A DNA stretch of 64,000 nt from contig JAISED010000063.1 in assembly GCA_031264295.1 (NCBI GenBank), positions 18,909 through 82,908 of the forward strand, in the 5' to 3' direction. Under the pieces are notes generated by a model that worked only from the letters and a program-made list of their open reading frames with translations, had not been told where the DNA came from and searched no databases. Below, piece by piece: positions 4,964 to 39,980 of this stretch. Within the stretch, counting starts at the first letter, position 1; every line of letters starts with the position of its first letter. The DNA comes from Eubacteriales Family XIII. Incertae Sedis bacterium. Its GTDB lineage: Bacteria > Bacillota > Clostridia > Peptostreptococcales > Anaerovoracaceae. The position numbers were made by a program, and so were the translations under genes.

Positions 4964-6877
4964 TTAAGTTTCCGCTGTCATATATTTTTTTAGCTTTCTG
5001 TAAGCGTTCGCCTGACTTGTGCAAAGTATTCGGGCGATTTCATAAGAGCTGTGTCCGCTTTCCGCGGCTAAGGCAAAAAGTTGGCGCTCCGTCTCGTCCA
5101 GAGCATCCTGCAGCGGCATTATATTCCGCACGGTCACCGAAGTATCCCGCCGCGGATTGAACACCGCCGACGCGCGCACGCCGGATTCACGCCCCACGCT
5201 GCCATTCCTTTCTTCCGAGTCAAGATCAAGCCTTCCGATTTCGCCGTCGAACAATATGACCATGCGCTCCACGAAATACTCCAGCTGGCGCACATTTCCC
5301 GGCCATTCCCATGCGCACATATCGTCAATAGCGCTATCCGAAAAGAAGGTCTGCTTCCTGTGTTTTATGTTGAAAAGCCTTAAAAAGTGATCGATCAGCA
5401 TGGGTATATCATCCGCCCTTTCCCTCAGGGGCGCGATGTGTATGGGGAACAGATTCAGGCGATAGTACAGATCGGCGCGAAATGTCCCCGCGGCTATCCT
5501 GTCCGTTAAAGAATTATTCGTCGCGGCGATAATCCTCGCATCGACGTCTATCTCCTTGAATCCTCCGATCCGCGTTACCCGTTTATCCTGCAGGACTTTC
5601 AGCAATTTCGCCTGCAGGGGCAGCGCCATATCGCCGATCTCGTCCAAGAGCATGGAACCGCCGTGGGCGATTTCCAAAAGCCCGGGCTTACCTCCCGCCT
5701 TGGCGCCGGTAAACGCGCCCGACTCATAACCGAAAAACTCAGACTCAAACAGCATTTCCGGTATGCTGTTGCAGTTTACCTCTATCATGTTTTTCCCGGC
5801 GCGCGAGCTTTTTGCGTGAATATACCTGGCAAGCAGGCTCTTACCCGTCCCCGATTCCCCTGTGATCAGGACAGTACAGTCAGTCTCGGCGGCCTTTTCA
5901 GCTATCTCCACCACCGCCCGCATCTGCCCGCCGAAACAGATGATTTTGTCGTCGTCGCGCACCACCGGACGCGTAAATGTCTTGCCGCGCGTTTTTTCTA
6001 CATAGTGTTTAAGCTGCTCATATTCTTCTATACTCCTGGCGTTTGTCACTATCATCTCAATCGCGCCGTGATCGTTTAAGATCGGAACGCCCGTTACAAT
6101 CCATTGGGTAACACGCCCAAATCTGTTTAATACTTCCTGTAATATGGTAATGCTCTTGCCTTCGCGGATGATCATGGGCGTTAGAGACGGTTTTATATGT
6201 CCCTGCTTTTCCAATTCATCAGCGCGCACATTGATATACTTAGATCTATCCAGCCCCGCCGGTTTATCAAAGGCGTTATTCGCGAAAACCGCGACTCCCT
6301 TGCCATCGGCGACAAATATACTGTCAGCGGAATATTTCAATATCTTCAGCAGCTTTGCGTTATTGTCGGAGATAGCGTCTATCAAGCGGCTCATCTCGTC
6401 CGATGTATGATAAGCCGGAAGGCGAAAAATCCAGTTGCCCGCGTATTCATCCCCTCCCAAAGGCTCTATCTGCTTTGCCGCCGCTGACAAACGCCTTATC
6501 ACATCTTCAAAGAGAGCCTGCACGGCAGCGACCCTTCTCACTGAACCGCATGGTCTTCCCTCGTCGTCAACGATCAAGAGCGTATCCGCGTGTTCGAAAT
6601 CCCGCATATCGACGACGTCCTCGCTCTTACGCGACTCGACGGCGCCTACAGAGGCGGCGCGCAGCGCTTCAACGAGGTTCTTGGCGTTCGCCGCAACAGC
6701 CAGAATCAGCGAACGCGCCGTCAGGAATCCGCCAATCTCACCGCGCGCCGTACGCACCCACAGAACCCCGAAGGCATCGCTCATCCCAGCTAAGACCGCT
6801 ACAGCAGCATCAAGTGTATCTTCTTCATCAAGAACCGTCGCGTCCCTCAAAGGTTTTGCAATTTCTTTATATCTCAT
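4964..6877 (-). CDS. Sigma-54-dependent transcriptional activator (CBS-like N-terminus, PAS, AAA+, HTH)
   Basis: GESGTGKSLLARYIH (Walker A), ESEFFGYESGAFTGA (GAFTGA motif), GSMLLDEIGDM, WPGNVRQLEYFVER, C-terminal HTH SSYEIARILCTSQANAYRKLKKY. Confidence 0.95.
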   Translation of the reverse strand: MRYKEIAKPLRDATVLDEEDTLDAAVAVLAGMSDAFGVLWVRTARGEIGGFLTARSLILAVAANAKNLVEALRAASVGAVESRKSEDVVDMRDFEHADTLLIVDDEGRPCGSVRRVAAVQALFEDVIRRLSAAAKQIEPLGGDEYAGNWIFRLPAYHTSDEMSRLIDAISDNNAKLLKILKYSADSIFVADGKGVAVFANNAFDKPAGLDRSKYINVRADELEKQGHIKPSLTPMIIREGKSITILQEVLNRFGRVTQWIVTGVPILNDHGAIEMIVTNARSIEEYEQLKHYVEKTRGKTFTRPVVRDDDKIICFGGQMRAVVEIAEKAAETDCTVLITGESGTGKSLLARYIHAKSSRAGKNMIEVNCNSIPEMLFESEFFGYESGAFTGAKAGGKPGLLEIAHGGSMLLDEIGDMALPLQAKLLKVLQDKRVTRIGGFKEIDVDARIIAATNNSLTDRIAAGTFRADLYYRLNLFPIHIAPLRERADDIPMLIDHFLRLFNIKHRKQTFFSDSAIDDMCAWEWPGNVRQLEYFVERMVILFDGEIGRLDLDSEERNGSVGRESGVRASAVFNPRRDTSVTVRNIMPLQDALDETERQLFALAAESGHSSYEIARILCTSQANAYRKLKKYMTAET

Positions 6878-6977
6878 AGCCCTTCTCCATTTGCTAATCA
6901 GACTCATTGAATAAATCATACCATATCAAGAGGGATAATGCCACAATGTTTTTTTGATTGTTTTTATGTTAACCGAT

Positions 6978-16681: not shown

Positions 16682-17848
16682 TCATGATACGCGCTGCCGT
16701 TTCTGCATTACTTCCCCCAGCATTTCTATCCGCTTGCAGAGCGCATCGCAAAGAATATCACACCGGGCTTGGTCGATGAAAAGAGAATCCCCGACGATTT
16801 CACGGAATTCCTCATCAATGCCATCCAGCGCCGTCAGGTCAATCCAATCAAGCGAGAACGCCGGCTTGATCTGTTCACTGTGTCTGGTTCGAAATGGTTT
16901 ACACGGCGATTTCAACGCGTCGGCGTGAATCATGCTCAGAGGCGCTGAAAACCAAAAGGATGTGCCGTTGTCATAGATCGGCGCAGACCCAATCCACTCC
17001 AGCGTGTCGGCATTGCGCAAGACCCCAAAATTGTTTTGATGCCTGTCTTCATTGACAATCAGATAGTCCAGCGCTATCATTCGGTCAAGCTCTTCACGTA
17101 CGTCCGGAATGCCCAAAGCCTCGCAGCAATTCAAGTAATGCCTGTAAACCGACACATGGTTTTCCTTTTTCTGCGTCTGCATGATATTCCATGCACTGAT
17201 GAGTTCAGTTTGGGGCGTCACAAAATTCTCACATACGCTGAACGGGTATTCGTCCTGCATCATCAGTTTATAGGAAACATGCGGAATGCCCAAGCGCCGC
17301 ATTATGGCGCTCGCCAAAACTTCGTTGTAGGGTTCTTGTTGTGTAGCGCCGCTGCCTCCCTTAACAAGGCAGCGCTTACCATTCATGATAAGCCACTTCT
17401 TACGCAACCACCCATCTGAAGTATTATCCGGAGACATCAAGCTGATCTCCGCGCCGTTTGTTCCTTTTCCAAGCAGGATGTCGCCAAGATCCTCGGAAAA
17501 ATGGTTCCCAAAGAAATTGACATTTGCCCATTTCAGAGAGGCGCGCGCCGGACATATCCAATATTGGTCGGACAAGCTTAATCCGAAGCACTTATCCAGT
17601 AAGTTTTGAGTAGACGACAACTCCAGTAGTTGCAAAGCATCTCCGATACCCTGGCGGTTTGCGGGAATAGCGCGCTTCTTCCACCACTCATTCAGAGCGG
17701 CGCGGTCAATTTCGCTTTTTTTGACTGCAACACCTATAGGCACATGATCCGCAGCATAAACGCTCCCTATCTTCGCAATAAAACATGCCGCGTCGTCAAG
17801 CGCCAAATCGGTTACATGAGTATCTTTGTGCATCAATTTGTAATCCAA
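16682..17848 (-). CDS. HipA-like kinase domain protein
   Basis: Motif LIVNEDRHQNNFGVLRN and downstream PIYDNGTSFW are typical of HipA-like kinases. Confidence 0.75.
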   Translation of the reverse strand: MDYKLMHKDTHVTDLALDDAACFIAKIGSVYAADHVPIGVAVKKSEIDRAALNEWWKKRAIPANRQGIGDALQLLELSSTQNLLDKCFGLSLSDQYWICPARASLKWANVNFFGNHFSEDLGDILLGKGTNGAEISLMSPDNTSDGWLRKKWLIMNGKRCLVKGGSGATQQEPYNEVLASAIMRRLGIPHVSYKLMMQDEYPFSVCENFVTPQTELISAWNIMQTQKKENHVSVYRHYLNCCEALGIPDVREELDRMIALDYLIVNEDRHQNNFGVLRNADTLEWIGSAPIYDNGTSFWFSAPLSMIHADALKSPCKPFRTRHSEQIKPAFSLDWIDLTALDGIDEEFREIVGDSLFIDQARCDILCDALCKRIEMLGEVMQKRQRVS

Positions 17849-18369: not shown

Positions 18370-21300
18370 TTATTCTGCGCGTTCCAAATACCGTTGCAGC
18401 AGCGTCGCGGCCTCGGCGCGCGTCGCCGTACCCTCGGGCGCCAGCGTCGTCTTCGTGCGGCCTGTGAGAAGCCCGCCGTTGACCGCCCATGTCATCGCTT
18501 CCTCCGCCCAGCTTGATATCTTCTCCGCGTCGGTGTAGTCACTTGTACCGCCCTCCGTCTTCGGGCTGCCTGAGTAACGGTATAGCATGGCTGCGAACTG
18601 CTCGCGCGTGATCTCTCCGTTAGGGTTTGTGCCGTCTGTTATGCGGTTCGTTATGCCCCATTCGACCGCTTTTGAGTACCACGTCTCGCCGCCGTTCGTG
18701 TCTATACCGGCCTCCCGCGCCAGTATGGTTATGAGCATGGCGCGTGTTAGCGCCGTCTGCGGCGCATAGGCCGAGTCGCCTGTGCCGTTCATGAGACCCT
18801 TTGCGTAAACGTAACGTATGGCCTTGTAGTACCAGTCTCCCCTCTTGATGTCCTCAAACGGGCTGATCCATTCACTGACGAAGTATTCTCCTGTCTCGGA
18901 GGTCGTAAACACCATCTTGCCTGTCGCTGCGTCGTATTTTGCATCCTTGATCTCTGTATAATCTCCGTTCGCGCCGAGTTTGTAGACTGTAAGCAGCTCT
19001 GCGTCATCGTCCGTATTCTTTGTGTATGGAAGCGATACGGCGACGCTTCCTCCTAGCTCTGATATCTCTGCGCCTCCTACCTTGACGGTCAATGAAAACG
19101 CCTTGTTGCTCGTCTTAAGGGTCTCTGTTTTACCCTGATCTGCTATGATCACTTCGAGCGTGTCGCCTGTCTTGGCCGCTATTGCGGTCAAGGCTTCTTT
19201 GCTGAAGCTCATGTCTCCTACGGGTGATTTGACGACTAATTCGAATCCGTTGTCTGCAATCTCCTTTGCGGAGGATTTGGGCAGTGTCACATCGGCGATC
19301 TTTGTACTCTCGTTGCCCTTTACTGTGATCGACACGGCTGTGGATTTGTCTTTCTTGGCCTTGTCTACGGCTGCTTTGACGTCTTCGCTCTTGACTACGA
19401 CTTTCGCTGTGCCGCCTCCGAGGCTTTCTTCGGCCTTGATTTCACTTGTTGATGCAGTCCCTGAAGTCCCGCCCGGCGTTTTCGCATCCGCTGAGGTAGG
19501 CAGGCGATCAGGCGCGTTAAGCCATTTGTTGTACTGTGAACCGTCGCCGAGCGTGGGGTATTGCAGATCGCTGAACCAGTCGCCCACCTCGTGGCGATAG
19601 TCATTCACGTAGTGCCATACCACCTTATCGCCGTCGTGTAATGTCTGTTCCTTGATCCCGTAACCGGGGTGGCTGCCGTTTACTGTGTACATCCACCCTG
19701 AATAAGAGCCGTTTGTGAACTCGGACAGACGGTAGGCGCCGAGAACGGTAGGCGCTGTGATTGTTTTGACGTAGTTGCTCTCCGCTCCTGTCTGTGAAAG
19801 CCCCGCGCCCTGAATCGCCAGCATGAACAGGTCATACATAGTAGCGCCCCTGTTTAGTGTGTAGCTGCTTGTCGGTATCCATGTTACGTATTCGGAATCG
19901 TTTACGCCCGCGCTGAGGTTTACGTCCTTGCTCGCCCGTGTAGCGCCTATCAGGCGAAAGCTGACAGATATCCCGCTGTCACCTGTAGAGCCGCCTGTCG
20001 TTTCAAGCTTGGCTATGGCTTCAGACAGCGCGGTCTTCGCCGCGTCTACTTCTTCTTGCGTGGCTGACGGCTTCGCTTCTATGGTCTTGGCTGCCGCAAG
20101 CACGTTTTTCAGATTATTGAGGCTTGACGCGGTATAGGACGCCGGGCTTTGCACAGCGGCTTCCGCCTTCGCTATCAGTGCGGAAAGTAGGGTCTTGTCA
20201 ACGGCGGGCGTGGTGTCTGTAATCAGAAGCTTCGCATCGCTCATGTCGTAGAGCGCCGGTAGCTTCTTCACGAAACGCTCATAGGCTACAAGTGCGTATG
20301 CGGCCTGATCCGTGGCCATACCGTCGACTGCTCCGTCCCATGTGTGTTTGAATCCTCCGTTCGCGTCCGCGAAGCTCAGCAAAAAGTCGATCGGACTCTT
20401 GCCGTTCTTGATAAAGTTCGTATCCGTGTCGGCATCTATGCCCAGCGCGGAAAGCGCGACGATAAGCTGTGATATGTTTTCTGAGGATTTATCGCCCCAG
20501 GCTATAAACGTGCCGTCGTCCTGCTGCGCGTTTGACAACCAAGTTATCGCTCTGCTTATAGCCTCTTCGACCTCGGCTTGTGTTCTGTACGGCGCAAGCG
20601 CCTGTAGGCACATCGCTGTGATATCGGGATCGGGATTAGCGCCGCCGAGCGACCAACCGCCCCCGCTGATTTCAGCCTCCAGTATCGCGTTAACCAAGGC
20701 TTCGCGCGCGCCTGTGAGTTCATATCCGCCCGAATCAATGGCGAGCAGCGCATATATTGCGCCGTTGATTCCCTGTCTGTTCACCCACGTCATATCCGCT
20801 AACGGTGCGACAAGATTATTGCCTTCGACATTTGCCGCGTTTAGACCGATCGCCGTCAGGCCGAGTATGGCGCGGGAATTCTCCGTGGATCTGTTCTCGT
20901 CTATCTTCGCCTTGCCGTTTATCTCCGCGAACACGCGGCTGTAGTAGCCATCGTAGTAAGCGGCTTCTGTATATCCGCTGCGGGCTAGGGCTAGTATCGT
21001 CCATTCCCCTCCGCCCGTGCCGAATACGGGCGTCGGCACGCTTGTACGCAGATACGTGAGTGCGCTTGCAAGCGCTGTCTCGTAGGGAATATCCGGGGTA
21101 TCCGGCGGGATCAGCCAGCCGTTCGGGTACTGCGGCGTACCGCCGTCCATATCTGTTTCCAAGTAAAAGTCGTCCACATAGTGCCAGATAATCTCATCGC
21201 CCGCTTTGACTTGCTGCGCGCGCAAACCCTGCGACGTATGTACGCCGTTCACCGTGTACATCCAACCTGAGTTCGAGCCGTTGTCCGCTTGCGTGAGCAT

Positions 21301-24300
21301 TCCGCCACCGTATTTTGCGGGGATTGCAATTGCGCTTATGTAGTTTTGCTGTCCCTCGGTGTAGGAGAGTCCGGCATTACCGAGCGCCCAATCGAATACA
21401 TCGAACACGGTAGCGCTCGTTTTGCCTGCCATGGAATATTCCACGGGGTTGATCCAGTTCTGATATTCGGTCTGCGCGCCGTAGCCCGGCTTGTCCGCAT
21501 GCTTAGCCGCGCCCACAAGACGGAATGTAACGACATTTTTAAGCTCGTCTGACGGCGTCACCGTTAGGACTGCCCGCGCATATGTGAGTTTGTTCGGGCT
21601 GCCTAGCTTGGCCGATATTATGTGCGCGCCCAGGGCAAGGTCTCCGGTATGAATGGTCACGTTTCCGTTTTCATCAGTTACGAGATCGCTTGCGCCGGTC
21701 ATGACGCTCTGTGCGGGATTGCCGTCTATGTAAATCTGCGCGTTTTCAATCGCAGCGCCCACCGTACCGTCTGTACCGACAGGCTTGCCGCGCAGTGTAA
21801 ATGCAATGCTTCCACCTTTAGCAACGCTGATTTCTTCGTTCGTAAACCACGCGCGTTGTTGTCCGCTGTTGTTTTCGTTGTAGTACAATACGATCTCATC
21901 ATTCGGTTTAACAAGTGTTTTCCAGTAATCCGCCGTGACAAGTCCGTTAGCCTCTAAGACCCAAGCCGCGCCCGCAAGCGGCTCACCGTTTATCGTAACG
22001 TTCGGCGTCAGCTTCCCCTGATAGGCGGTGAAATCGATCTGCGGCTGTCTGCCGCTCAGCGCGTCGATCAGCGCGTGGAGCACGGTGTAACCGCCTGGGT
22101 TGTATTCGACATAGCCCTGCCGCGCCAGATCCGCCGGGGTTTTGCCCGCGTCGTATTCAATCACTCCGTCGTATAGCACGGTGTTTTGCGATATGATCTT
22201 AAGCTTTGCCGCTCCTGACGCTTGGTTCAACTTGTCGGCATCAGTGAACGCGGGGATGAATACACTCTCTGTATCCTTCTTTACGTCGAAGGCGCCTGTC
22301 TTGGTCACATAGCCTGATTTTTCAACATAATATCTGTAACCATCCGCGACTGGCAGCGGCCATGCGCCGTCTTCATCTTGTGTGACCCTCGCGCCGTCCG
22401 GCTTACGGATGGTAAGCGTTGCGCCTTCGTCGACTGCTATCGTGAAAGCCGGCGGCGCCGCGCCGCGTTTCACCTTGATGGTATATGTAACTGTATTTTT
22501 CGTTCCTGTATCTGTGTCATTGTCCGCCGCTATTCCGACAACGGTGATAATCGTTTCATCACCGGTGAGCGCAATAGGAGATGACTCTCCATCGCTTACG
22601 GGCATACCGTTTACCGTTACACTTGTAACTTTACCGTTCGGCTCAGTAAACGGGCGAACATTTACCCTTACATTGTTTACATTATATGGAACTTCTGCGA
22701 TGTAGCTGCTGCGCGTGGCGAGGAAACCGTAGCCGAGTGAAAGAACGGGTTTGTCCCCATCGCCCGACAACTCCGCGCTTGTATCCACTGCGGCGGGGCT
22801 GCCGTCCGCGTCCGCCGCGAACAGACGTCCGCTGTAATAGTCTGCATCCGCTTTGTTGTCGAGATTCAGCTGTACATCTTGGATATAGGGGTATCTCCCC
22901 CTGTCTTCCTCAAGTATTCGGCGAAATGTATATGCCACCGGATTGCCGGCGTTCAAATCGTCGGGTGTGATAATCGCTTCAAGAAATCCTTGATTCGTAC
23001 TGCCCCAGTCGGAAACGGAAATGCTGTCCATTACAGCCCTATCACTATAAAACCATCTAGCGGCTATGCTATCTGGATGTGTAGAAACCCAATTTCGGTA
23101 ATATCCCTTCCCGTTTACCGCATAAAAGTGTAATGCGGTCGATACGTAAATATTGCCATTTTCCGCACGGGCAAGGGGGACGTCGAAATTCCTGAAACGC
23201 CCGATGTCAGGCAGACGTGTTTCCGCTTCAACCGAAGTAGTATAATAACTAATGCCACTGGGCAAGGCATATTCATTTTTCTCCTTCTCACGTGCAAAGA
23301 CATCATCCTCCACGTAAAAAGAGATATCTGGTAATATAGAGAAATCGCCTGAAACTGCGTCTGCGTTCAAATTCGCCTTAACGCCGTTTTCCCCGATACT
23401 GTGATGCGCTCCCGATGCGCTTCCCCAACCTGATGACGTTGCAACGCCTTTGCTTAAGGTAGCGGCGCCCGGTTCTATGAATGTTAGATTAAGCAAATTT
23501 TTATTCGCAAAATCATAGCCGACGTCGCTGACACCTCGCATGGTTGCTCCCCACGAAGTCTCATATACAGCGTGCATACTGCCGGAATTATAGATTCCAG
23601 CCAGCTTTATCGGCGCGGACTCAACCCCGTCAAAGAATATCTGTACGGTGTCGCCGAGAGCTGCATTGTCCCCTTTTTTCCAATCAGGATTGCTGAGGTT
23701 TGTAATATTTACGGTCACGCCCTTGGCCTTGATCACGTGGTATTGTTTGAAATCCTGCGAACTTGCCGCCACTTCAACGATATTCCGCCCTTCTTTGAGG
23801 TTGATAGTATAGCTGCCGTCCGCATTTGGTCTGTATGTCGTCCATTTGTCCGCCTTATTCCATTCGTCGGCGAGGCCGCCATTGTGCAGCGGGTCGTGAA
23901 CGCGCACGGAAATATAGCCGTTGTCGACAGCGGGCGTGAATGTGTACTCCGCATAGTCGGAGACATCGCGGTCGAAATAATACGTGTTGGTTTCCTGCGC
24001 TTTTATGTTGGTCTGAAGATTTGTGGGATTTGCCGCAGCAGGATTTGAAACAGTATTCACGATGAAAATACCTTCGTGAACAGGATCGGTTTCAGGATAG
24101 AACACATCGGTTTGTGTGGGAGTAAAGCATCCGCTTTCATCAACGCTTGCCTTGCCCTCAGTATATGTCTTATACCACTGCAAGGGATCATACGTCACCT
24201 TAACAACGCTCAGACCGGCATTACCCGATGATATGATGAAGGAATCCCGCCCCGGATTGTTTTTAGACGCGGCACTTACTTGCCCGCTTAGATTGAGCAC

Positions 24301-25551
24301 CTCAACGCGGTAGTCGGGATTTACGAAAAAGTTCGCCATTGTATCGTCTAACGCCAATCCCTGCCAAACCCGCAGCGGCACCAGTTCAAATGTAGAATTT
24401 TCCGGCATCACAAGATGCTGGGCGTCATTTATATTCAAATAAAGGTCATTCGATCTGTGCCCTTGCCGCGTTCGTGTGACCTCACCAATTGTTTGCAAAT
24501 TCAGGTTTACTGACTTTATTTCTTTTTCAGTATTTTGCGCTCTACCGATATTTTGTAGTTCAACGGCTGTTTTCACAAACGGGCTGCTCCCACCGCCGGC
24601 AAGAACAGTACAGTAATACGGTAATCTAGCCTTGTATATATCGTAACCGTCCACATTTTCACTTTCGAGTGTCACTGTATTAAGAATGCGAAATGGTGTA
24701 AAATGTGCGCCAACTTTATTGAAGAACATTATCGGAGCGCCGTGTGTGACCTTTACTTCTATTTCTGTTAGCGCCGCACCTCTTTGGTTCGGGAAGTGGT
24801 TTGAACCTGGTGTAAACAACATCAGATCAGTAATCTGATTCTTTACTTGCAGGCTGTAATCATTTATGGCATAATCAGGATTTGACGGATCCACCCGAAA
24901 ATCCACATACTTATTTAGCTGTGTGCAAATCAAATATTCTACAACTGTCATTAATCCTATGGTGTCTGATGCATCCCCAACTGTAACGGGATCGTGAATT
25001 GGCTTTACTTCATTCTGAAGCATGTCAAACATTGTTATCTTGACATCGTAGACCTCTTCCGTTTCATCAATGTAAACACATCCATATTCGGCCACGGCGA
25101 ACTTCACAGGTAAGAGATAGAATACCTGTACTGCGGTGCCGTCGACATCCACCAGGAACACACCGTCCGCCGTCTGCTTGCGTGAATCTCCGCCGCCGGC
25201 AAATGTACGCCAATAATAGTAGCCGGGTTCGCATTGGAATGTGACATGTGACCTGTTAGCGGTGTCTATTGTTGCATTGCCAATGTCTACCTTGCTGTCA
25301 GCCGAAAAATCTTCAGTTCTGTATACTTCAAGCTGGTCGCCGGTTATAGCCGTAACTGCTGAAATGCCTTGAGCCGGAACAGCTGCGATAGATCTTAGGC
25401 TGTAATTTATGGTTATAGTGCGCAGATCAGCCGAACTGACTGCCTCGGCCGATTCGGCCGCAAAGGCGGAACCTATGGCAGGCGACAATCCAAACGACAT
25501 TGCCGCGATCAGAATTGCCGCTATAATAGATTTGAATTTATGTAACTTCAC
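18370..25551 (-). CDS. Giant secreted surface protein: signal peptide, cadherin-like beta-sandwich, DUF4430 repeats, terpenoid-cyclase-like alpha/alpha barrel, three SLH domains
   Basis: Signal peptide MKLHKFKSIIAAILIAAMSFGLSPAIGSAFA. DUF4430-like blocks with NSGWMYTVNG...VKAGDEIIWHYVDDF and YSGWMYTVNGSHPGYGIKEQTLHDGDKVVWHYVNDY. Repeats GGGWSLGGANPDPDITAMCLQAL. C-terminal SLH (FEDIKRGDWYYKAIRYVYAKGLMNGTGDSAYAPQTALTRAM). Confidence 0.9.
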   Translation of the reverse strand: MKLHKFKSIIAAILIAAMSFGLSPAIGSAFAAESAEAVSSADLRTITINYSLRSIAAVPAQGISAVTAITGDQLEVYRTEDFSADSKVDIGNATIDTANRSHVTFQCEPGYYYWRTFAGGGDSRKQTADGVFLVDVDGTAVQVFYLLPVKFAVAEYGCVYIDETEEVYDVKITMFDMLQNEVKPIHDPVTVGDASDTIGLMTVVEYLICTQLNKYVDFRVDPSNPDYAINDYSLQVKNQITDLMLFTPGSNHFPNQRGAALTEIEVKVTHGAPIMFFNKVGAHFTPFRILNTVTLESENVDGYDIYKARLPYYCTVLAGGGSSPFVKTAVELQNIGRAQNTEKEIKSVNLNLQTIGEVTRTRQGHRSNDLYLNINDAQHLVMPENSTFELVPLRVWQGLALDDTMANFFVNPDYRVEVLNLSGQVSAASKNNPGRDSFIISSGNAGLSVVKVTYDPLQWYKTYTEGKASVDESGCFTPTQTDVFYPETDPVHEGIFIVNTVSNPAAANPTNLQTNIKAQETNTYYFDRDVSDYAEYTFTPAVDNGYISVRVHDPLHNGGLADEWNKADKWTTYRPNADGSYTINLKEGRNIVEVAASSQDFKQYHVIKAKGVTVNITNLSNPDWKKGDNAALGDTVQIFFDGVESAPIKLAGIYNSGSMHAVYETSWGATMRGVSDVGYDFANKNLLNLTFIEPGAATLSKGVATSSGWGSASGAHHSIGENGVKANLNADAVSGDFSILPDISFYVEDDVFAREKEKNEYALPSGISYYTTSVEAETRLPDIGRFRNFDVPLARAENGNIYVSTALHFYAVNGKGYYRNWVSTHPDSIAARWFYSDRAVMDSISVSDWGSTNQGFLEAIITPDDLNAGNPVAYTFRRILEEDRGRYPYIQDVQLNLDNKADADYYSGRLFAADADGSPAAVDTSAELSGDGDKPVLSLGYGFLATRSSYIAEVPYNVNNVRVNVRPFTEPNGKVTSVTVNGMPVSDGESSPIALTGDETIITVVGIAADNDTDTGTKNTVTYTIKVKRGAAPPAFTIAVDEGATLTIRKPDGARVTQDEDGAWPLPVADGYRYYVEKSGYVTKTGAFDVKKDTESVFIPAFTDADKLNQASGAAKLKIISQNTVLYDGVIEYDAGKTPADLARQGYVEYNPGGYTVLHALIDALSGRQPQIDFTAYQGKLTPNVTINGEPLAGAAWVLEANGLVTADYWKTLVKPNDEIVLYYNENNSGQQRAWFTNEEISVAKGGSIAFTLRGKPVGTDGTVGAAIENAQIYIDGNPAQSVMTGASDLVTDENGNVTIHTGDLALGAHIISAKLGSPNKLTYARAVLTVTPSDELKNVVTFRLVGAAKHADKPGYGAQTEYQNWINPVEYSMAGKTSATVFDVFDWALGNAGLSYTEGQQNYISAIAIPAKYGGGMLTQADNGSNSGWMYTVNGVHTSQGLRAQQVKAGDEIIWHYVDDFYLETDMDGGTPQYPNGWLIPPDTPDIPYETALASALTYLRTSVPTPVFGTGGGEWTILALARSGYTEAAYYDGYYSRVFAEINGKAKIDENRSTENSRAILGLTAIGLNAANVEGNNLVAPLADMTWVNRQGINGAIYALLAIDSGGYELTGAREALVNAILEAEISGGGWSLGGANPDPDITAMCLQALAPYRTQAEVEEAISRAITWLSNAQQDDGTFIAWGDKSSENISQLIVALSALGIDADTDTNFIKNGKSPIDFLLSFADANGGFKHTWDGAVDGMATDQAAYALVAYERFVKKLPALYDMSDAKLLITDTTPAVDKTLLSALIAKAEAAVQSPASYTASSLNNLKNVLAAAKTIEAKPSATQEEVDAAKTALSEAIAKLETTGGSTGDSGISVSFRLIGATRASKDVNLSAGVNDSEYVTWIPTSSYTLNRGATMYDLFMLAIQGAGLSQTGAESNYVKTITAPTVLGAYRLSEFTNGSYSGWMYTVNGSHPGYGIKEQTLHDGDKVVWHYVNDYRHEVGDWFSDLQYPTLGDGSQYNKWLNAPDRLPTSADAKTPGGTSGTASTSEIKAEESLGGGTAKVVVKSEDVKAAVDKAKKDKSTAVSITVKGNESTKIADVTLPKSSAKEIADNGFELVVKSPVGDMSFSKEALTAIAAKTGDTLEVIIADQGKTETLKTSNKAFSLTVKVGGAEISELGGSVAVSLPYTKNTDDDAELLTVYKLGANGDYTEIKDAKYDAATGKMVFTTSETGEYFVSEWISPFEDIKRGDWYYKAIRYVYAKGLMNGTGDSAYAPQTALTRAMLITILAREAGIDTNGGETWYSKAVEWGITNRITDGTNPNGEITREQFAAMLYRYSGSPKTEGGTSDYTDAEKISSWAEEAMTWAVNGGLLTGRTKTTLAPEGTATRAEAATLLQRYLERAE

Positions 25552-25649
25552 GAAAAATGCATCCTTTCTTAAAACGCTTATTAACGAAAAATCGCGGGGA
25601 GGCGTGAAAGTTCACCGCTCCCCGCGCTATTAAACTATGCAGCGATCAC

Positions 25650-26615
25650 CTAGGGATTGATGATATCCGGGAATAATTCATCATCATAGTAGTCGCCGAA
25701 TTTCAGTACAACATAGTCTCCCTCGGATAACTTGTAATCATCCATGGTGATTATTTTAGACATGGGATCTACATTATACTGGCCGGGTATCCTCGGATCC
25801 GCTTTATAAACGCGGTACAACCAGCCGTCAGGAAGGGTTGTTGGGTGCGGCACGCCATTGATCGTGATGGATTCGATGCCGTCAAATCCCCGTGCCGACG
25901 TCCAACTGTCCGCTGCTTTTTGAAAATATACCGCATTGGCAAATCCATCCAAAGCCGTCACATAGGAACGCCCTATATGCGCTCCGCTGTAATAATCATT
26001 CCCAGATGCGCTGAATGGTCTAGGCGTTACTGACGGCAGACCTGTGTCCGGATCGTAAATCGCATATATCAATCCGCCCACGATCACGTTAGGGTCGTCC
26101 TGTACCCTCTCATTCGTTACAACAAAGGTGAAATCAGCTCCGGGCAGATCAACGTCGGCAGTATACGTCGCCTTTACGCTGTACGGACCTGTATCCGGAG
26201 CATTGGCATAGTACGATGAAAAGTACGCCTCATATGCCGGTGCTTCGCCAATAACGGAACCGAAATCATAGTCGAATTCACTTTCAAAATCCAGTGAAGC
26301 TATGTTGCTCAGCGTGCCTGGCGTATTATCCGACCAGCTTATGTCCGCCGCGCTGAATCCTGATGGGAACGGCGCTAAAAAATAGATACCTGAAGCCGAT
26401 ACGCCAAGCGCGAACTCCGTGTATGCGTCAATAAATTGCGACTGTGTAACATCGAAGGTAAACGCCGGATATTCCGGAACTGTCGCCAATATCTCCGGCG
26501 GAGCGGCCGTCGCCGTAGGCGCGGCTGCGAACGCCTGAGCGCCGATCAGTGAAAACATCATCGTTGCCGCGAGCAGCGCGGTCAAGATTCTCTTATGGGA
26601 TTTTGTGGCTTTCAT
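25650..26615 (-). CDS. Secreted protein with DUF4430-like C-terminal domain
   Basis: Signal peptide MKATKSHKRILTALLAATMMFSLIGAQAFA. C-terminal GWLYRVYKADPRIPGQYNVDPMSKIITMDDYKLSEGDYVVLKFGDYYDDE aligns with the DUF4430 blocks of the neighbouring gene. Confidence 0.75.
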   Translation of the reverse strand: MKATKSHKRILTALLAATMMFSLIGAQAFAAAPTATAAPPEILATVPEYPAFTFDVTQSQFIDAYTEFALGVSASGIYFLAPFPSGFSAADISWSDNTPGTLSNIASLDFESEFDYDFGSVIGEAPAYEAYFSSYYANAPDTGPYSVKATYTADVDLPGADFTFVVTNERVQDDPNVIVGGLIYAIYDPDTGLPSVTPRPFSASGNDYYSGAHIGRSYVTALDGFANAVYFQKAADSWTSARGFDGIESITINGVPHPTTLPDGWLYRVYKADPRIPGQYNVDPMSKIITMDDYKLSEGDYVVLKFGDYYDDELFPDIINP

Positions 26616-26979
26616 CTTAAAACCTGTCCTTTCTTTCTAATTTTGTTCAATTTTCATTGAACTGATTTTCTTGAATTTAATTTTGGACTTTGCTTCAGCG
26701 AGGGCGAACGCGCGTATATCATGCGCCGCTCCGCCGGGTCGTCCCTTTCGGTGTAATGCTGAATCAAGTAAGTAGATGCATTCGGCAAGCGGCGGCGCGG
26801 ACGGCCTCTTCGTCTCGCTTGCCGCAGCAAACTCCCGACCTGATTCTGCAAGGTGTCTTTAACACTGCGTCCCCCTTTCGCATTGTCATTGTTAAGCGCA
26901 TTACGCGCTGCGGATTCAATCTCTAGCCCCACACTGCCCCGTCATGCGGAATCGTTCCGCCTTCAATCTTGCACAAAAC

Positions 26980-27021
26980 AAAAAGACCGCGACAACCCAA
27001 ATTCTTGGAATTGTCACGGCC
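26980..27021 (-). terminator. Intrinsic terminator in the cobalamin riboswitch expression platform
   Basis: RNA GGCCGUGACAA...UUGUCGCGGUC (11 bp including G-U pairs) followed by UUUUUGUUUUG. Confidence 0.7.
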
Positions 27022-27039
27022 GTTATTCCCGTGATCCCC

Positions 27040-27300
27040 ACAAGTACTCGCTGCGCGCGCGAAAATACCTGCCATAAAGCCTTCTTGCAGGTCTCCCGGC
27101 TCGCGCATCTGAAGCTTGTGCAATAGACACAGTCCCTCTCGTCTGTTTCAAGCCTTCCCTTTCGGTGGCCGGCTTTCGCCTGAAGAAACAGACTCCGCGC
27201 ATACGGTAGCGGTTCGCTTATTTCCCGAAAATATCAAGATTTAAGCCTGCTCAGGATTCTCACCTGATTCCCTATTCTCCCTGCCGCGCATCTCGAAAAG
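27040..27300 (-). ncRNA. Cobalamin riboswitch (aptamer; boundaries approximate)
   Basis: Reverse strand contains GGGAATCAGGTGAGAATCCTGAGCAGG...ACCGCTACCGTA...GCCACCGAAAGGGAAGGC...GAGCCGGGAGACCTGC (B12 box at 27087-27103). Confidence 0.9.
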
Positions 27301-27614
27301 AGGAAGCGCGCCAAGACACAAAAATCGTATTTGGAGGCTTCTAAGACCTCCCTTTTGTTTTCAAACTAATGACGCGGAAGAAAATATGTTTTCGCGCCAA
27401 ACTCTTTCTCACAAGTAAAAGTGTACCATGTGCGGAAACATTGGTCAAGAGGCTTTCCGTAAATTCCCCCCGAACTTTTCGTAAACTTTTCGTAAAGATT
27501 TTCGACAGGCACATGTAAATTTCTGTAAATATCATTGTCGGAATTTTCGCCGCATTCCGTCAACTTTTTGTCATTTTTATCCACGTGAATCGCAACTCAT
27601 AATCGCACAAATCC

Positions 27615-27703: not shown

Positions 27704-28534
27704 ATGAGCGAAGGGGGTTCCACCCCCCGCAGGCGGTTTCGCCTGTCGGGAAAGGATGTTTATATCTATAGGGAAGTGTCTTCTACTAATCTTGTCGCCC
27801 GCTCGATGGCCGCAGACGGCGCGCACAGCGACACCGTAATTATGGCCGCGTTTCAAAACGCCGGCGTCGGTCGTATGCAGCGCCCTTGGGTCTGTCCCGC
27901 CGGAAGCGGAATCACCATGTCTATGATACTAAATCCCGATATAAACCTGAGTTCTATCCCGCTGCTCTCTTTACTGTGCGGCGCGGTCGTAGCCGAAACC
28001 GTAAGGGATCTCACGGGATGCCCTGCAGGTCTCAAATGGCCTAATGACGTTCTTGTGGACGGCAAGAAAATCTGCGGTATCCTCGCTCAAGGCGGCGTTC
28101 GTAAAAATGCCTGCAGCTACGTCATACTCGGCGTCGGCCTGAATGTAAATCAATCCCCTGACGAGTTCCCGCCTGAATTCCGAGATTTCAGCACATCCCT
28201 CAGAATGGAACTCGGTGAACGTGTTTCCCGCATCCGCGCTCTGAAACGCTTCTTCGAGCTGTGGGACATGCATTACGCGGAATTTTCAAGATCGGGTTCC
28301 GCTTATATTCGTGAACGATGGCTGGAAAACAATGTGACTTTAGGACATACAGTAAGGCTGCACGGCGATGCGCCGGACTCGCCTATCCAGGATGGCGTCG
28401 CTGTTGATATAAGTGAAAGAGGCGGTCTCATGCTTCGCCTGCCGAGCGGGGACATCAAGGAATTTTTAGCCGAAGAACTCAGTTTAGGCCGTTCGCATTA
28501 CGCACCGCGCAAGGTCGAAAGGAATACTAAATGA
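27704..28534 (+). CDS. birA: Biotin--[biotin carboxyl-carrier protein] ligase, without N-terminal HTH
   Basis: SGITMSMIL, LKWPNDVLVDGKKICGILAQG, VILGVGLNVNQ motifs. Confidence 0.92.
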   Translation: MSEGGSTPRRRFRLSGKDVYIYREVSSTNLVARSMAADGAHSDTVIMAAFQNAGVGRMQRPWVCPAGSGITMSMILNPDINLSSIPLLSLLCGAVVAETVRDLTGCPAGLKWPNDVLVDGKKICGILAQGGVRKNACSYVILGVGLNVNQSPDEFPPEFRDFSTSLRMELGERVSRIRALKRFFELWDMHYAEFSRSGSAYIRERWLENNVTLGHTVRLHGDAPDSPIQDGVAVDISERGGLMLRLPSGDIKEFLAEELSLGRSHYAPRKVERNTK

Positions 28535-30648
28535 ACGTCCCCAAGAATCTCAATCTCGTCGAGCACATGCCCGTCAGAGAGATGATGAATACCAATTTCA
28601 AGCCTCTGCTCCCCGGCGATACCCTCCGGACAGTTCTTGAGTATTATCAGGATAACAAGGTAAATCTCCTGCCGGTGCTTGACGCGCACAGAAAGCTGGT
28701 CGGCGTATTCCCTAAGAAACGCCTTTTCAGAGCCTTGCTTGAAGGCGCCGATATAGACGCGCCCTGCGAGGTCTTTATGATAAAAAATCCCGTATGCATC
28801 AGCGCCGACTTATCATACGATGAATTTTCATTAGTCTCCAGGGTCAGGAAAAGCCGCGTAGATACCGTCATCGTTCTGGATGGTGATGAGGTAGTGGGCA
28901 CTATGGGCACGGCGGAGTATCTGATCGCCAGTCAAAACCTCGTTACGGCTTCCTCCGCCCTTTTAGAATCCCTGTTTCGCGTTAACCAGGAAGGCATCGT
29001 CATCGTAGACACCGACGAACGCATCATTAAAGCAAATCCCGCCGCGGAGAGAATGTTCAATCTGAACGTGTCCGACGTCCTCGGCAAGAAGATGGGCTTT
29101 GTATTCCCCGAGGTTGAATTTCAAGATCGTTTCAGCGGCATCTATAAACGCACCGTGCGCTCCCTCCCCGTTATGATAAACTGCACTCCTATAGTTGAAA
29201 ACGACGTGCCTATCGGGGCAAGCTACGCCTTCAGGGATCTCTCTGAACTCGAGAAGATCGCCCATGAACTTGAGATAGTGCGCACATTGCAAACGACGAT
29301 CAACGGCGTACTCAACTCCTCTTCGGACGGCGTGTTCGTTTCCGACACAAGCGGCGCGATCAAATATGTGAACAATAAAGCCTGTAATCTGTTCTCCAAG
29401 ACCTTCGATCAGATCACAGATCAGCCCGTTCAGCGTCTGTTCAAGACCGACACCCCGTTTAGAGTGGCTCGTTCAGGCTCTGTGGAGGTGGATAACTGCG
29501 ATATAAACGGTAAAAAATGCCTGGTATCCCACGCCCCGCTGAAAAACAGCGAGCGCGATGAGATCACCGGCATCGTGAGTACCGTATACCTTAACGACAA
29601 CGCCATTGCCGAAGAGCTGTTTCGCAAGTGGTCGTTTCTCAACCAAGAGATGGAATATTACAGGGAGAAGCTGGAAAAGCGCGACGGCGTAAGGAGCAGC
29701 TTTGACAATATCATAGCCCATGACGTGGGATTCAGCAAGATCAAACAAGACGCCCAACGTATCGCGCGAAGCAGCTCTACTGTACTGCTGACGGGCGAAA
29801 GCGGCGTGGGCAAAGGCATGTTCGCACGCGGCATTCATGATTTCAGCCCGCGAGCGGAGCATCCCTTCGTGATCGTCAACTGCGTATCTATACCCGAGAC
29901 ATTGTTTGAATCCGAGCTGTTCGGCTACGCGCCCGGTTCATTCACAGGCGCATTGAAGAGCGGAAAGCCGGGCTTCTTTGAAAGGGCGCAGCACGGAACC
30001 GTCTTCCTGGATGAGATAGGCGATATCCCCCTATCCACTCAGGTCAAGCTTCTTCAGGTACTTCAGGAAAAAGAATTTATACGGGTAGGCGGCAGCAGTA
30101 AGCAAAACGTCGACGTCCGCATTATTGCCGCAACCAACCGCAATCTCATGGAAGCCGTAGCAAATAAAACCTTCCGCGAGGATCTTTATTATCGGCTCAA
30201 TGTCATAGAATTTCATATACCGCCCCTGCGCGAACGTACCGACGATATCATCCCGCTGGCGGAGTCCTTCATACAAAAATCCAACCACATCCTGGGCACA
30301 AAGATAACGGGACTGGACAGACGCGCCAGAACCGCCCTGCTTGAACACCCATGGCCCGGCAATATAAGAGAACTTGAAAATGCCATCGAACGGGCGGCAA
30401 ACTACGTCTGGGAAGGCGATATAGGCGTTGACGACCTGCCTTCGCAGATATCGCTGCAGTCAAACGCCTCCTATTCACAGATACACGCATCCTATCACAG
30501 TGCCCACGTGAATTTCGAACGCGAAATGCTCATGGACGCGCTGCGCAGGGCAAAGGGTAACAAGAGCGCCGCGGCTAAGCTTCTCAATCTCAGCCGTTCC
30601 GCGTTCTACGAAAGGCTTTCAAAATACGGCGTAACACGCGCCGAATAA
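28531..30648 (+). CDS. Sigma-54-dependent transcriptional activator (CBS, PAS, AAA+, Fis-type HTH)
   Basis: N-terminal CBS-like pair, GESGVGKGMFARGIH, ELFGYAPGSFTGA (GSFTGA variant), GTVFLDEIGDIPL, C-terminal GNKSAAAKLLNLSRSAFYERL. ATGA overlap with birA. Confidence 0.95.
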   Translation: MNVPKNLNLVEHMPVREMMNTNFKPLLPGDTLRTVLEYYQDNKVNLLPVLDAHRKLVGVFPKKRLFRALLEGADIDAPCEVFMIKNPVCISADLSYDEFSLVSRVRKSRVDTVIVLDGDEVVGTMGTAEYLIASQNLVTASSALLESLFRVNQEGIVIVDTDERIIKANPAAERMFNLNVSDVLGKKMGFVFPEVEFQDRFSGIYKRTVRSLPVMINCTPIVENDVPIGASYAFRDLSELEKIAHELEIVRTLQTTINGVLNSSSDGVFVSDTSGAIKYVNNKACNLFSKTFDQITDQPVQRLFKTDTPFRVARSGSVEVDNCDINGKKCLVSHAPLKNSERDEITGIVSTVYLNDNAIAEELFRKWSFLNQEMEYYREKLEKRDGVRSSFDNIIAHDVGFSKIKQDAQRIARSSSTVLLTGESGVGKGMFARGIHDFSPRAEHPFVIVNCVSIPETLFESELFGYAPGSFTGALKSGKPGFFERAQHGTVFLDEIGDIPLSTQVKLLQVLQEKEFIRVGGSSKQNVDVRIIAATNRNLMEAVANKTFREDLYYRLNVIEFHIPPLRERTDDIIPLAESFIQKSNHILGTKITGLDRRARTALLEHPWPGNIRELENAIERAANYVWEGDIGVDDLPSQISLQSNASYSQIHASYHSAHVNFEREMLMDALRRAKGNKSAAAKLLNLSRSAFYERLSKYGVTRAE

Positions 30649-38210: not shown

Positions 38211-38237
38211 TCTCCCGCCTTGGAAAGGAGCATTAAA

Positions 38238-39980
38238 ATGATAAACAGCGGTTATCCTTTGCATCCATATTTTAAGGAAATGCCGAGCATAGGGAGAGCA
38301 CTGACCCGGACGCTTAAGCAAAATGTCGAGGAGTTGAAGCAACAGGAAGAACTCATCGCGAAAGAGGTTGAGCGAGTAAGGAACAACGGTAAGGCCACGG
38401 AGCTTATGAACGAAAAAGGCGAGTGGACCGCATGGCAGCGCTTGGAATACCTCGTTGATCCGGGCACATGGTGTCCCCTGCACACGATCTATGATCCCCT
38501 TGAAAATGCCGAGGGCAATACCGGCGTCATAGACGGTCTCGGTAAAATCGCGGGCAAATGGGCGATAATCATAGCGTCCAACAACAAGGTTATGGCGGGC
38601 GCCTGGCTCTCCGGTCAGGCGGACAACGTCTTACGCGTTACCGATATCGCGAAGACCTTGCACCTGCCCCTTGTCTGGGTTCTGAACTGCAGCGGCGCTA
38701 AGCTGATGGAGCAGGAAAGGCTCTACCCGAACCGCAGAGGAAGCGGAACCCCCTTCTTCCGGCATGCTGAGCTTCAGAAACTCGGTATTCCGATCATCGT
38801 CGGCATATACGGAACCAACCCGGCAGGCGGCGGCTATCACGCCATCAGCCCGTCGATCCTGATCGGGCATCAGAAATGTAATATGGCGGTTGGCGGCGCC
38901 GGCATCGTAAGCGGCATGTCCCCTAAGGGCTACATTGACGACGAAGTCGCCGAAGGTTTGATAGAACAGACAAGAATGTTCAAGGCTACGCCGCCGGGAC
39001 GCGTAGAAATACACCAGGGGGGAACGGGCTTCATAAGGGACGTATGCGACACCGAAGAAGACGTTCTCAATGACATCAGGAGCTATATGGCTACATTACC
39101 GGCATATGACCCGAAATTCTTCCGTGTCGCGCCGTCTGTTGAGCCGAAATACCCTGCTGATGACCTCTACAGTCTGGTTCCCATGAACCAGAAGCGCACC
39201 TATTCCATGCCTGAAGTCCTCGCCCGCCTGTTTGATAACAGCGAACATATGGAATTCAGACCGGATTACGGTCCCGAGATGTACTGCGGGCTTGCGAAGA
39301 TCGATGGTTTTGTCTGCGGTTTCGTGGCGAACAATCAGGGACTTATGGCGGACGGCTATCCAAAGTATGCTGAATATAAGGCTATCGGAGGCAAACTGTA
39401 CCGCGAAGGTCTGATCAAGATGAACGAGTTCGTTACTCTCTGCGGCCGCGATCGCGTACCTATGATCTGGGTTCAAGACACCACCGGCATAGATGTGGGA
39501 GACATAGCGGAACAGGCAGAGATGCTGGGTCTGGGCATGTCGCTGATCTACTCTATAGAACAGTCCGACGTACCGATGATGACCATCGTCCTGCGCAAGG
39601 GCACTGCCGCCGCTCACTATGTGCTCGGCGGGCCCCAGGCGAATAACAATAACGCGTTCACCATAGGCACCGCCGCCACTGAGATCTACGTCATGCACGG
39701 TGAAACGGCCGCGGCCGCTTCATACGCCCGCAGACTCGTCAAGGACCGCGACGACGGCAAGCCTCTGGACGGCACTATAGCCAAGATGAACGAGATCATC
39801 CAGATGTATAACGATAAATCAAGACCCGCCTACTGCGCGTCTCACGGGCTGGTCGATGAAATCGTAGATATGCCCTATCTCAGAAACTACTGCAAGGCCT
39901 TCGTGGGTTCGTATTATCAGAATCCCAAGTCCTTCTGCGCGACGCATCAGATGCTCACGCCGAGGATCATAAAGGGCTAA
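38238..39980 (+). CDS. gcdA: Acyl-CoA carboxyltransferase, glutaconyl-CoA decarboxylase alpha-subunit-like
   Basis: About 580 aa, two carboxyltransferase lobes. NPAGGGYHAISPSILIGHQKCNMAVGGAGIVSG, WVQDTTGIDVGDIAEQAEMLGLG, HYVLGGPQANNNNAFTIGTAATEIYVMHGETAAAASYARRL. Confidence 0.85.
   Translation: MINSGYPLHPYFKEMPSIGRALTRTLKQNVEELKQQEELIAKEVERVRNNGKATELMNEKGEWTAWQRLEYLVDPGTWCPLHTIYDPLENAEGNTGVIDGLGKIAGKWAIIIASNNKVMAGAWLSGQADNVLRVTDIAKTLHLPLVWVLNCSGAKLMEQERLYPNRRGSGTPFFRHAELQKLGIPIIVGIYGTNPAGGGYHAISPSILIGHQKCNMAVGGAGIVSGMSPKGYIDDEVAEGLIEQTRMFKATPPGRVEIHQGGTGFIRDVCDTEEDVLNDIRSYMATLPAYDPKFFRVAPSVEPKYPADDLYSLVPMNQKRTYSMPEVLARLFDNSEHMEFRPDYGPEMYCGLAKIDGFVCGFVANNQGLMADGYPKYAEYKAIGGKLYREGLIKMNEFVTLCGRDRVPMIWVQDTTGIDVGDIAEQAEMLGLGMSLIYSIEQSDVPMMTIVLRKGTAAAHYVLGGPQANNNNAFTIGTAATEIYVMHGETAAAASYARRLVKDRDDGKPLDGTIAKMNEIIQMYNDKSRPAYCASHGLVDEIVDMPYLRNYCKAFVGSYYQNPKSFCATHQMLTPRIIKG

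Follow-up and report, generated by a model that had tools for sequence, protein, structure and literature searches.

A riboswitch-linked, wall-anchored protein with the domain pairing of animal vitamin B12 carriers as a predicted corrinoid trap in an Anaerovoracaceae bacterium

Surface capture of cobamides is already known; what the present locus brings to it is the architecture of the animal B12 carriers. The gene rtpR encodes an adenosylcobalamin-dependent ribonucleotide reductase. In Lacticaseibacillus, a DUF4430 gene lies beside rtpR and a protein is annotated as an 'additional lipoprotein component of putative cobalamin ECF transporter' (PMC9963975), and in Eubacterium siraeum a BtuH homologue is found near a predicted ECF cobamide transporter (PMC8941943). 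DUF4430 is also the name given to the C-terminal domain of the animal TCN proteins (PMC4350170), and the beta domain of human transcobalamin (TC), when isolated, binds corrinoids in crystals (PMC5599065). The vitamin B12 transporter of L. delbrueckii, ECF-CbrT (6FNP), has been characterised (PMC5997447). As the S subunits of ECF transporters sit fully within the membrane (PMC12075633), the question arises of how a thick-walled surface concentrates a scarce cobamide. A text search of the open literature, with most subscription papers and preprints outside its scope, returned no paper tying DUF4430, barrel and SLH proteins to B12 uptake, and does not establish priority.

We analysed a stretch of 64,000 nucleotides (the window; positions 18,909 to 82,908 of contig JAISED010000063.1, assembly GCA_031264295.1) from a bacterium of the family Anaerovoracaceae. 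A 2393-aa protein encoded in it very probably serves to trap B12-like vitamins at the cell surface, a prediction drawn from its transcobalamin/intrinsic-factor folds, the riboswitch at the locus and the presence of relatives in B12-importer operons across the phylum. In its full form, the reading that we consider likely is that a protein encoded in the window, repressed by B12 and anchored to the cell wall, captures a corrinoid by clamping it and passes it to a CbrT-type ECF transporter. An initial annotation of this DNA had already proposed corrinoid capture at the cell surface. The fold, the DUF4430 profile, the ECF operons and the riboswitch linkage discussed below speak for that proposal, whereas two of its elements, a 321-aa partner protein and the direct control of the large gene by the riboswitch, fare less well.

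On the minus strand, positions 27069-27333 match the Rfam covariance model of the cobalamin riboswitch aptamer (RF00174) with 48.8 bits against a gathering score of 31.5. The match is full length (model positions 1-189), and the conserved core and the B12 box (AGGGAA..GGUG..AAUCC, GCGAGCCGGGAGACCUGC) are intact. A terminator-like hairpin and U-run after the aptamer is the expression platform usual in transcriptional OFF switches. Such a hairpin and U-run, resembling an intrinsic terminator, lies 3' of this aptamer at 27021-26976 (minus strand; fold energy -24.8 kcal/mol, z -4.8) and provides the RF00174 match with its expression platform. On the 5' side, a promoter-like site at 27420-27448 on the same strand (TTGACC-17-TACACT with an extended -10 TG, 9/12 matches) comes from a consensus scan alone and says nothing on function. 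The riboswitch precedes two secreted-protein genes on the minus strand, as had been claimed from the sequence, with the gene for the 321-aa protein first and that for the 2393-aa protein second after a gap of 98 nt.

The larger gene (18370-25551, minus strand, GTG start) encodes a protein that begins with a hydrophobic, signal-peptide-like N-terminus, as read from the sequence, followed by a large N-terminal region, a DUF4430 domain, an alpha/alpha barrel, a FIVAR segment, a second DUF4430 domain and three SLH repeats. Only DUF4430, SLH and a cadherin-like domain score above the Pfam cut-offs. DUF4430 (PF14478) is matched twice (E 7e-22), at residues 1374-1465 (21157-21432) and residues 1890-1990 (19582-19884); profiles recover both copies, and the fold search adds to the second, which is of the transcobalamin beta-domain type. 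The cadherin-like beta-sandwich domain (PF12733, E 8e-13) occupies residues 942-1029 (22465-22728). The three SLH cell-wall-anchoring repeats (PF00395, E 2.9e-21) form the C-terminus, residues 2230-2393 (18373-18864), and match the SLH structure of the S-layer protein Sap; with the signal-peptide-like start, they mark the product as an SLH-anchored surface protein. Under the curated cut-offs are the FIVAR helical linker between the barrel and the second DUF4430 domain (residues 1785-1850, 20002-20199; PF07554, E 2.6e-6, just below cut-off) and the SQHop/prenyltransferase matches to the barrel. The barrel itself (residues 1483-1774, 20230-21105), of the terpenoid-cyclase/transcobalamin alpha-domain type, is called from these weak Pfam matches, from a discrete Emergencia barrel protein with which it shares 44% identity over 304 aa, and from a structure model that was searched with Foldseek. 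Thus, the combination of barrel, DUF4430 and SLH domains previously ascribed to the large product is upheld, the latter two by Pfam and the barrel by homology and modelling.

The same annotation had likened the pairing of barrel and DUF4430 domain to that of animal intrinsic factor and transcobalamin, and the structural comparison agrees, with the barrel preceding DUF4430 on one chain. An AF2 model of residues 1481-1990 (barrel-FIVAR-DUF4430), built on a shallow alignment with rows from the window and one homologous locus (L010), is of medium confidence (pLDDT 63.7, pTM 0.49). When this model was compared with 350,542 PDB chains using Foldseek, transcobalamin, haptocorrin and intrinsic factor made up the first 14 matches, among them 4zrp (4.1e-6), 2bb6, 4kki, 3kq4 and 2pmv, and only these 14 carrier chains (human, bovine, rat) reached E<=0.001. 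The alignments run over ~540 columns and therefore cover both domains. It should, however, be noted that the rmsd over both domains is about 23 A, so that the likeness to intrinsic factor holds for the two-domain fold and not for the placement of the domains relative to each other, which the model does not predict. For the DUF4430 part, a profile of 36 bacterial domains has transcobalamin-2 (5no0, the isolated human beta domain) as its best PDB match with a weak E of 0.033. Other transcobalamins and haptocorrin 4kki are also listed, and an invariant Trp as well as conserved Tyr and Gly positions align with 5no0.

The sequence profile of the barrel matches drimenyl diphosphate synthase and squalene cyclases with E down to 2e-22, and transcobalamin was found neither by this profile nor by a joint barrel+DUF4430 profile. 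The link between barrel and transcobalamin is consequently one of structure, both of these sequence profiles missing the carriers. The cyclase matches would suit a barrel that is a terpene-cyclase- or lyase-type enzyme, acting on the bound corrinoid, or on some other ligand, to modify or release it, and not a passive binder. We regard such an enzyme as very improbable here, since in Foldseek the transcobalamin family outranks every cyclase (terpene cyclases and glycoside hydrolases appear at 4e-3 and worse), and since the barrel is part of a secreted, wall-anchored protein with DUF4430 whose kind shares operons with a vitamin importer.

The host genome, assembled to 86% completeness in 88 contigs totalling 2.79 Mb, contains two cobalamin riboswitches only, one in the window and one on another contig (C38). 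The latter leads an operon encoding a barrel-SLH protein, a DUF4430 protein, a CbiQ-like EcfT and a fused EcfA-A'-S protein, which places an importer under the same riboswitch as the barrel and DUF4430 proteins; no ECF gene adjoins the window locus or lies elsewhere in the window. Both subunits of lysine 5,6-aminomutase score above curated cut-offs in this genome. It further encodes a MetH-like protein, in which pterin- and B12-binding domains are combined, as well as several radical SAM proteins of the B12-binding type. CobS and CbiC were searched in the same genome and not found, and the 86%-complete assembly could conceal either. With B12 enzymes present and CobS and CbiC not found, the host probably imports cobamides. 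Two further proteins combine barrel, DUF4430 and SLH domains, one of 2354 aa on contig C30 and one of 1414 aa on contig C43, and neither has a riboswitch. The C30 gene (L013; 7993-15057, minus strand) encodes two barrels, two DUF4430 domains and SLH repeats, and near it lies a gene whose sequence resembles a PLP enzyme of Cys/Met metabolism.

The linkage between DUF4430 genes and cobalamin riboswitches extends well beyond this genome. In a family sample of 61 genomes with 118 riboswitch matches, 44 of the 100 DUF4430 genes, distributed over 27 genomes, follow a riboswitch on the same strand at a distance of at most 10 kb, against 0.77 expected from uniform placement and genome size, a rough null for which the opposite-strand count (0 within 10 kb) serves as internal control. 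Across the phylum, at least 32 of 92 sampled DUF4430 genes are riboswitch-linked (0.29 expected by the same rough null; none on the opposite strand). Chance co-location was rejected on the numbers of the family sample (44 observed, 0.8 expected).

We inspected 37 loci, 36 of which were picked by riboswitch and DUF4430 only and one (L010) by homology to the window protein. Genes for EcfT and EcfA are also present in 24 of the 37, and in 11 of those 24 the operon includes a barrel+DUF4430+SLH protein of the window type, often in the leading position behind the riboswitch. Riboswitch operons elsewhere also encode an anchored DUF4430 protein, and in Emergencia sp. SUG182 (Anaerovoracaceae) two riboswitches surround the same set of barrel, DUF4430 and ECF genes. 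Discrete S subunits were taken from the operons of Emergencia and of two family genomes, three in all, and the S part of the C38 fusion is homologous to them. A profile built on these three has ECF-CbrT (6FNP) as its best PDB match with E 1.9e-16, compared with 0.0024 for a riboflavin S subunit. A CbrT-type S subunit with EcfT and EcfA/A' is thus present in the C38 operon and in the operons of relatives. On these two values, we rejected the idea that the linked ECF importer carries an unrelated substrate.

Some further loci deserve separate mention. In one genome of the family sample (G011, contigs C1 and C2), the cobalamin riboswitch is matched 15 times and several DUF4430 proteins reach ~1100-1200 aa; four of these large proteins have a riboswitch within 2.5 kb upstream, so that the system appears locally expanded. 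At another locus (L061; G054 contig C63, 454-3328, plus strand), three consecutive DUF4430 genes, two encoding ~140 aa with lipoprotein-like signal sequences and one encoding 392 aa, are interleaved with two cobalamin riboswitches. Viral contigs scanned with the barrel and DUF4430 alignments yielded no relatives.

By the same counts, no riboswitch was detected in the 10 kb upstream of the remaining 56 of the 100 family DUF4430 genes. Together with the riboswitch-less paralogues on C30 and C43, and with barrel and DUF4430 domains accounting for a minority of the 2393-aa protein and leaving most of it uncovered, they would agree with a general extracellular scaffold for ligand binding or adhesion, of which the B12-regulated copies have no corrinoid contact of their own and aid cobamide uptake only in an indirect way, such as adhesion or the binding of corrinoid-protein complexes. 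We hold such a scaffold to be quite unlikely, because the fold match is specific to the B12-carrier family in both domains, the linkage to a CbrT-like importer is phylum-wide, and crystals show corrinoids bound to the isolated human TC beta domain (PMC5599065).

The first gene behind the riboswitch (25650-26615, minus strand) encodes the 321-aa secreted protein, which has a signal-peptide-like N-terminus and had been put forward as a DUF4430 partner of the large protein. This part of the proposal is weak. Up to an E of 1, Pfam returns nothing for the protein, which does not reach the DUF4430 (PF14478) gathering score and is marginally DUF4430-like at its C-terminus (residues 262-313; hhalign probability 40%). 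Further, it is an orphan, homologues being absent from the 60 same-family genomes searched, and its AF2 model is uninformative (pLDDT 39.6); for these latter two reasons the partner idea was downgraded.

The region between the two genes complicates the regulation of the second. A terminator-like hairpin with a T-run, which the initial annotation had missed, is located at 25626-25587 on the minus strand (fold z -4.25), so that riboswitch control of the large gene needs read-through or a second promoter, and the 2393-aa gene may be only partly under such control. Hence, of the riboswitch control claimed for the locus, the position upstream of both genes stands, while control of the large gene is put in doubt by the intervening hairpin. 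If that hairpin were decisive, the riboswitch would govern the 321-aa gene only, and the 2393-aa gene would be a separate transcription unit with a function not necessarily related to B12. The strength of hairpin and T-run fits this arrangement, as does the lack of a homologue of the 321-aa protein in the 60 genomes. However, we think a separate unit unlikely, given that barrel+DUF4430+SLH homologues are riboswitch-led in many other genomes, that the consensus scan turned up no minus-strand promoter-like site in the intergenic gap and that this gap is so short. The question bears on regulation more than on function.

Elsewhere in the window, a 388-aa protein with a HipA-like kinase C-terminal domain (PF07804, E 5e-10) is encoded downstream of the large gene (16682-17848, minus strand), and two genes (28531-30648, plus strand; 4964-6919, minus strand) encode sigma-54-dependent activators with PrdR, below cut-off, as the best NCBIfam model. 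A gene of the biotin/lipoate ligase family (27704-28534, plus strand) runs divergently to the riboswitch locus, and further on, at 38220-39980 (plus strand), lies an MmdA-like carboxyltransferase gene that scores under its model's cut-off; the latter two may indicate biotin-dependent carboxylation in this region.

Returning to corrinoid capture, the mechanism that we propose would begin when cobamide is scarce and the riboswitch lets transcription run past its terminator. The 2393-aa protein would be secreted and then held in the wall through its SLH repeats, where the barrel and a DUF4430 beta-domain could close on a corrinoid in the manner of the alpha and beta domains of transcobalamin. From there, the corrinoid would reach a CbrT-type S subunit by way of small anchored, membrane-proximal DUF4430 proteins and barrel proteins. 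The receiving transporter would be the CbrT-type ECF transporter encoded in the C38 riboswitch operon of the same genome.

For the Clostridia at large, we see an even chance that a transcobalamin-type, S-layer-anchored corrinoid trap of barrel and DUF4430, as one chain or split over several, feeds a CbrT-type ECF importer phylum-wide. If true, such a trap would parallel the intrinsic factor system in Gram-positive cells, and the animal B12 carriers may have their bacterial root in it. A conserved, riboswitch-led operon with a CbrT-like importer and wall-anchored proteins of the intrinsic-factor type would offer a concrete, testable answer to how such a surface concentrates cobamides. It would also offer a function for bacterial DUF4430 proteins and raises the question of where the animal B12 carriers originated.

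The systems described to date each share a part of this arrangement. ECF-CbrT is the best profile match for the S subunits of the linked operons, to which the S part of the C38 fusion is homologous; the L. delbrueckii transporter was characterised as a membrane complex alone (PMC5997447), whereas the operons considered here add barrel, DUF4430 and SLH proteins. The Lacticaseibacillus case likewise ties an extracellular lipoprotein to a cobalamin ECF transporter, but does so by annotation alone, describes no barrel or SLH partner and does not relate the lipoprotein to DUF4430 (PMC9963975). BtuG and BtuH of Bacteroidetes resemble the proposed trap in capturing cobamides at the surface ahead of a transporter and in being encoded in riboswitch-bearing loci; unlike the window protein, they consist of a beta-propeller and BtuH domains, operate at a Gram-negative outer membrane with BtuB/BtuFCD and contain no barrel/DUF4430 pair (PMC8941943). 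Closest in architecture are animal intrinsic factor, transcobalamin and haptocorrin, in which, as in the window protein, an alpha/alpha barrel is followed by a DUF4430-type beta domain. The window protein differs from them in being bacterial, about 2400 aa long and anchored to the wall by SLH repeats, in carrying extra domains, a FIVAR linker and a second DUF4430 domain upstream of the barrel, and in having a barrel sequence nearer to the terpene cyclases.
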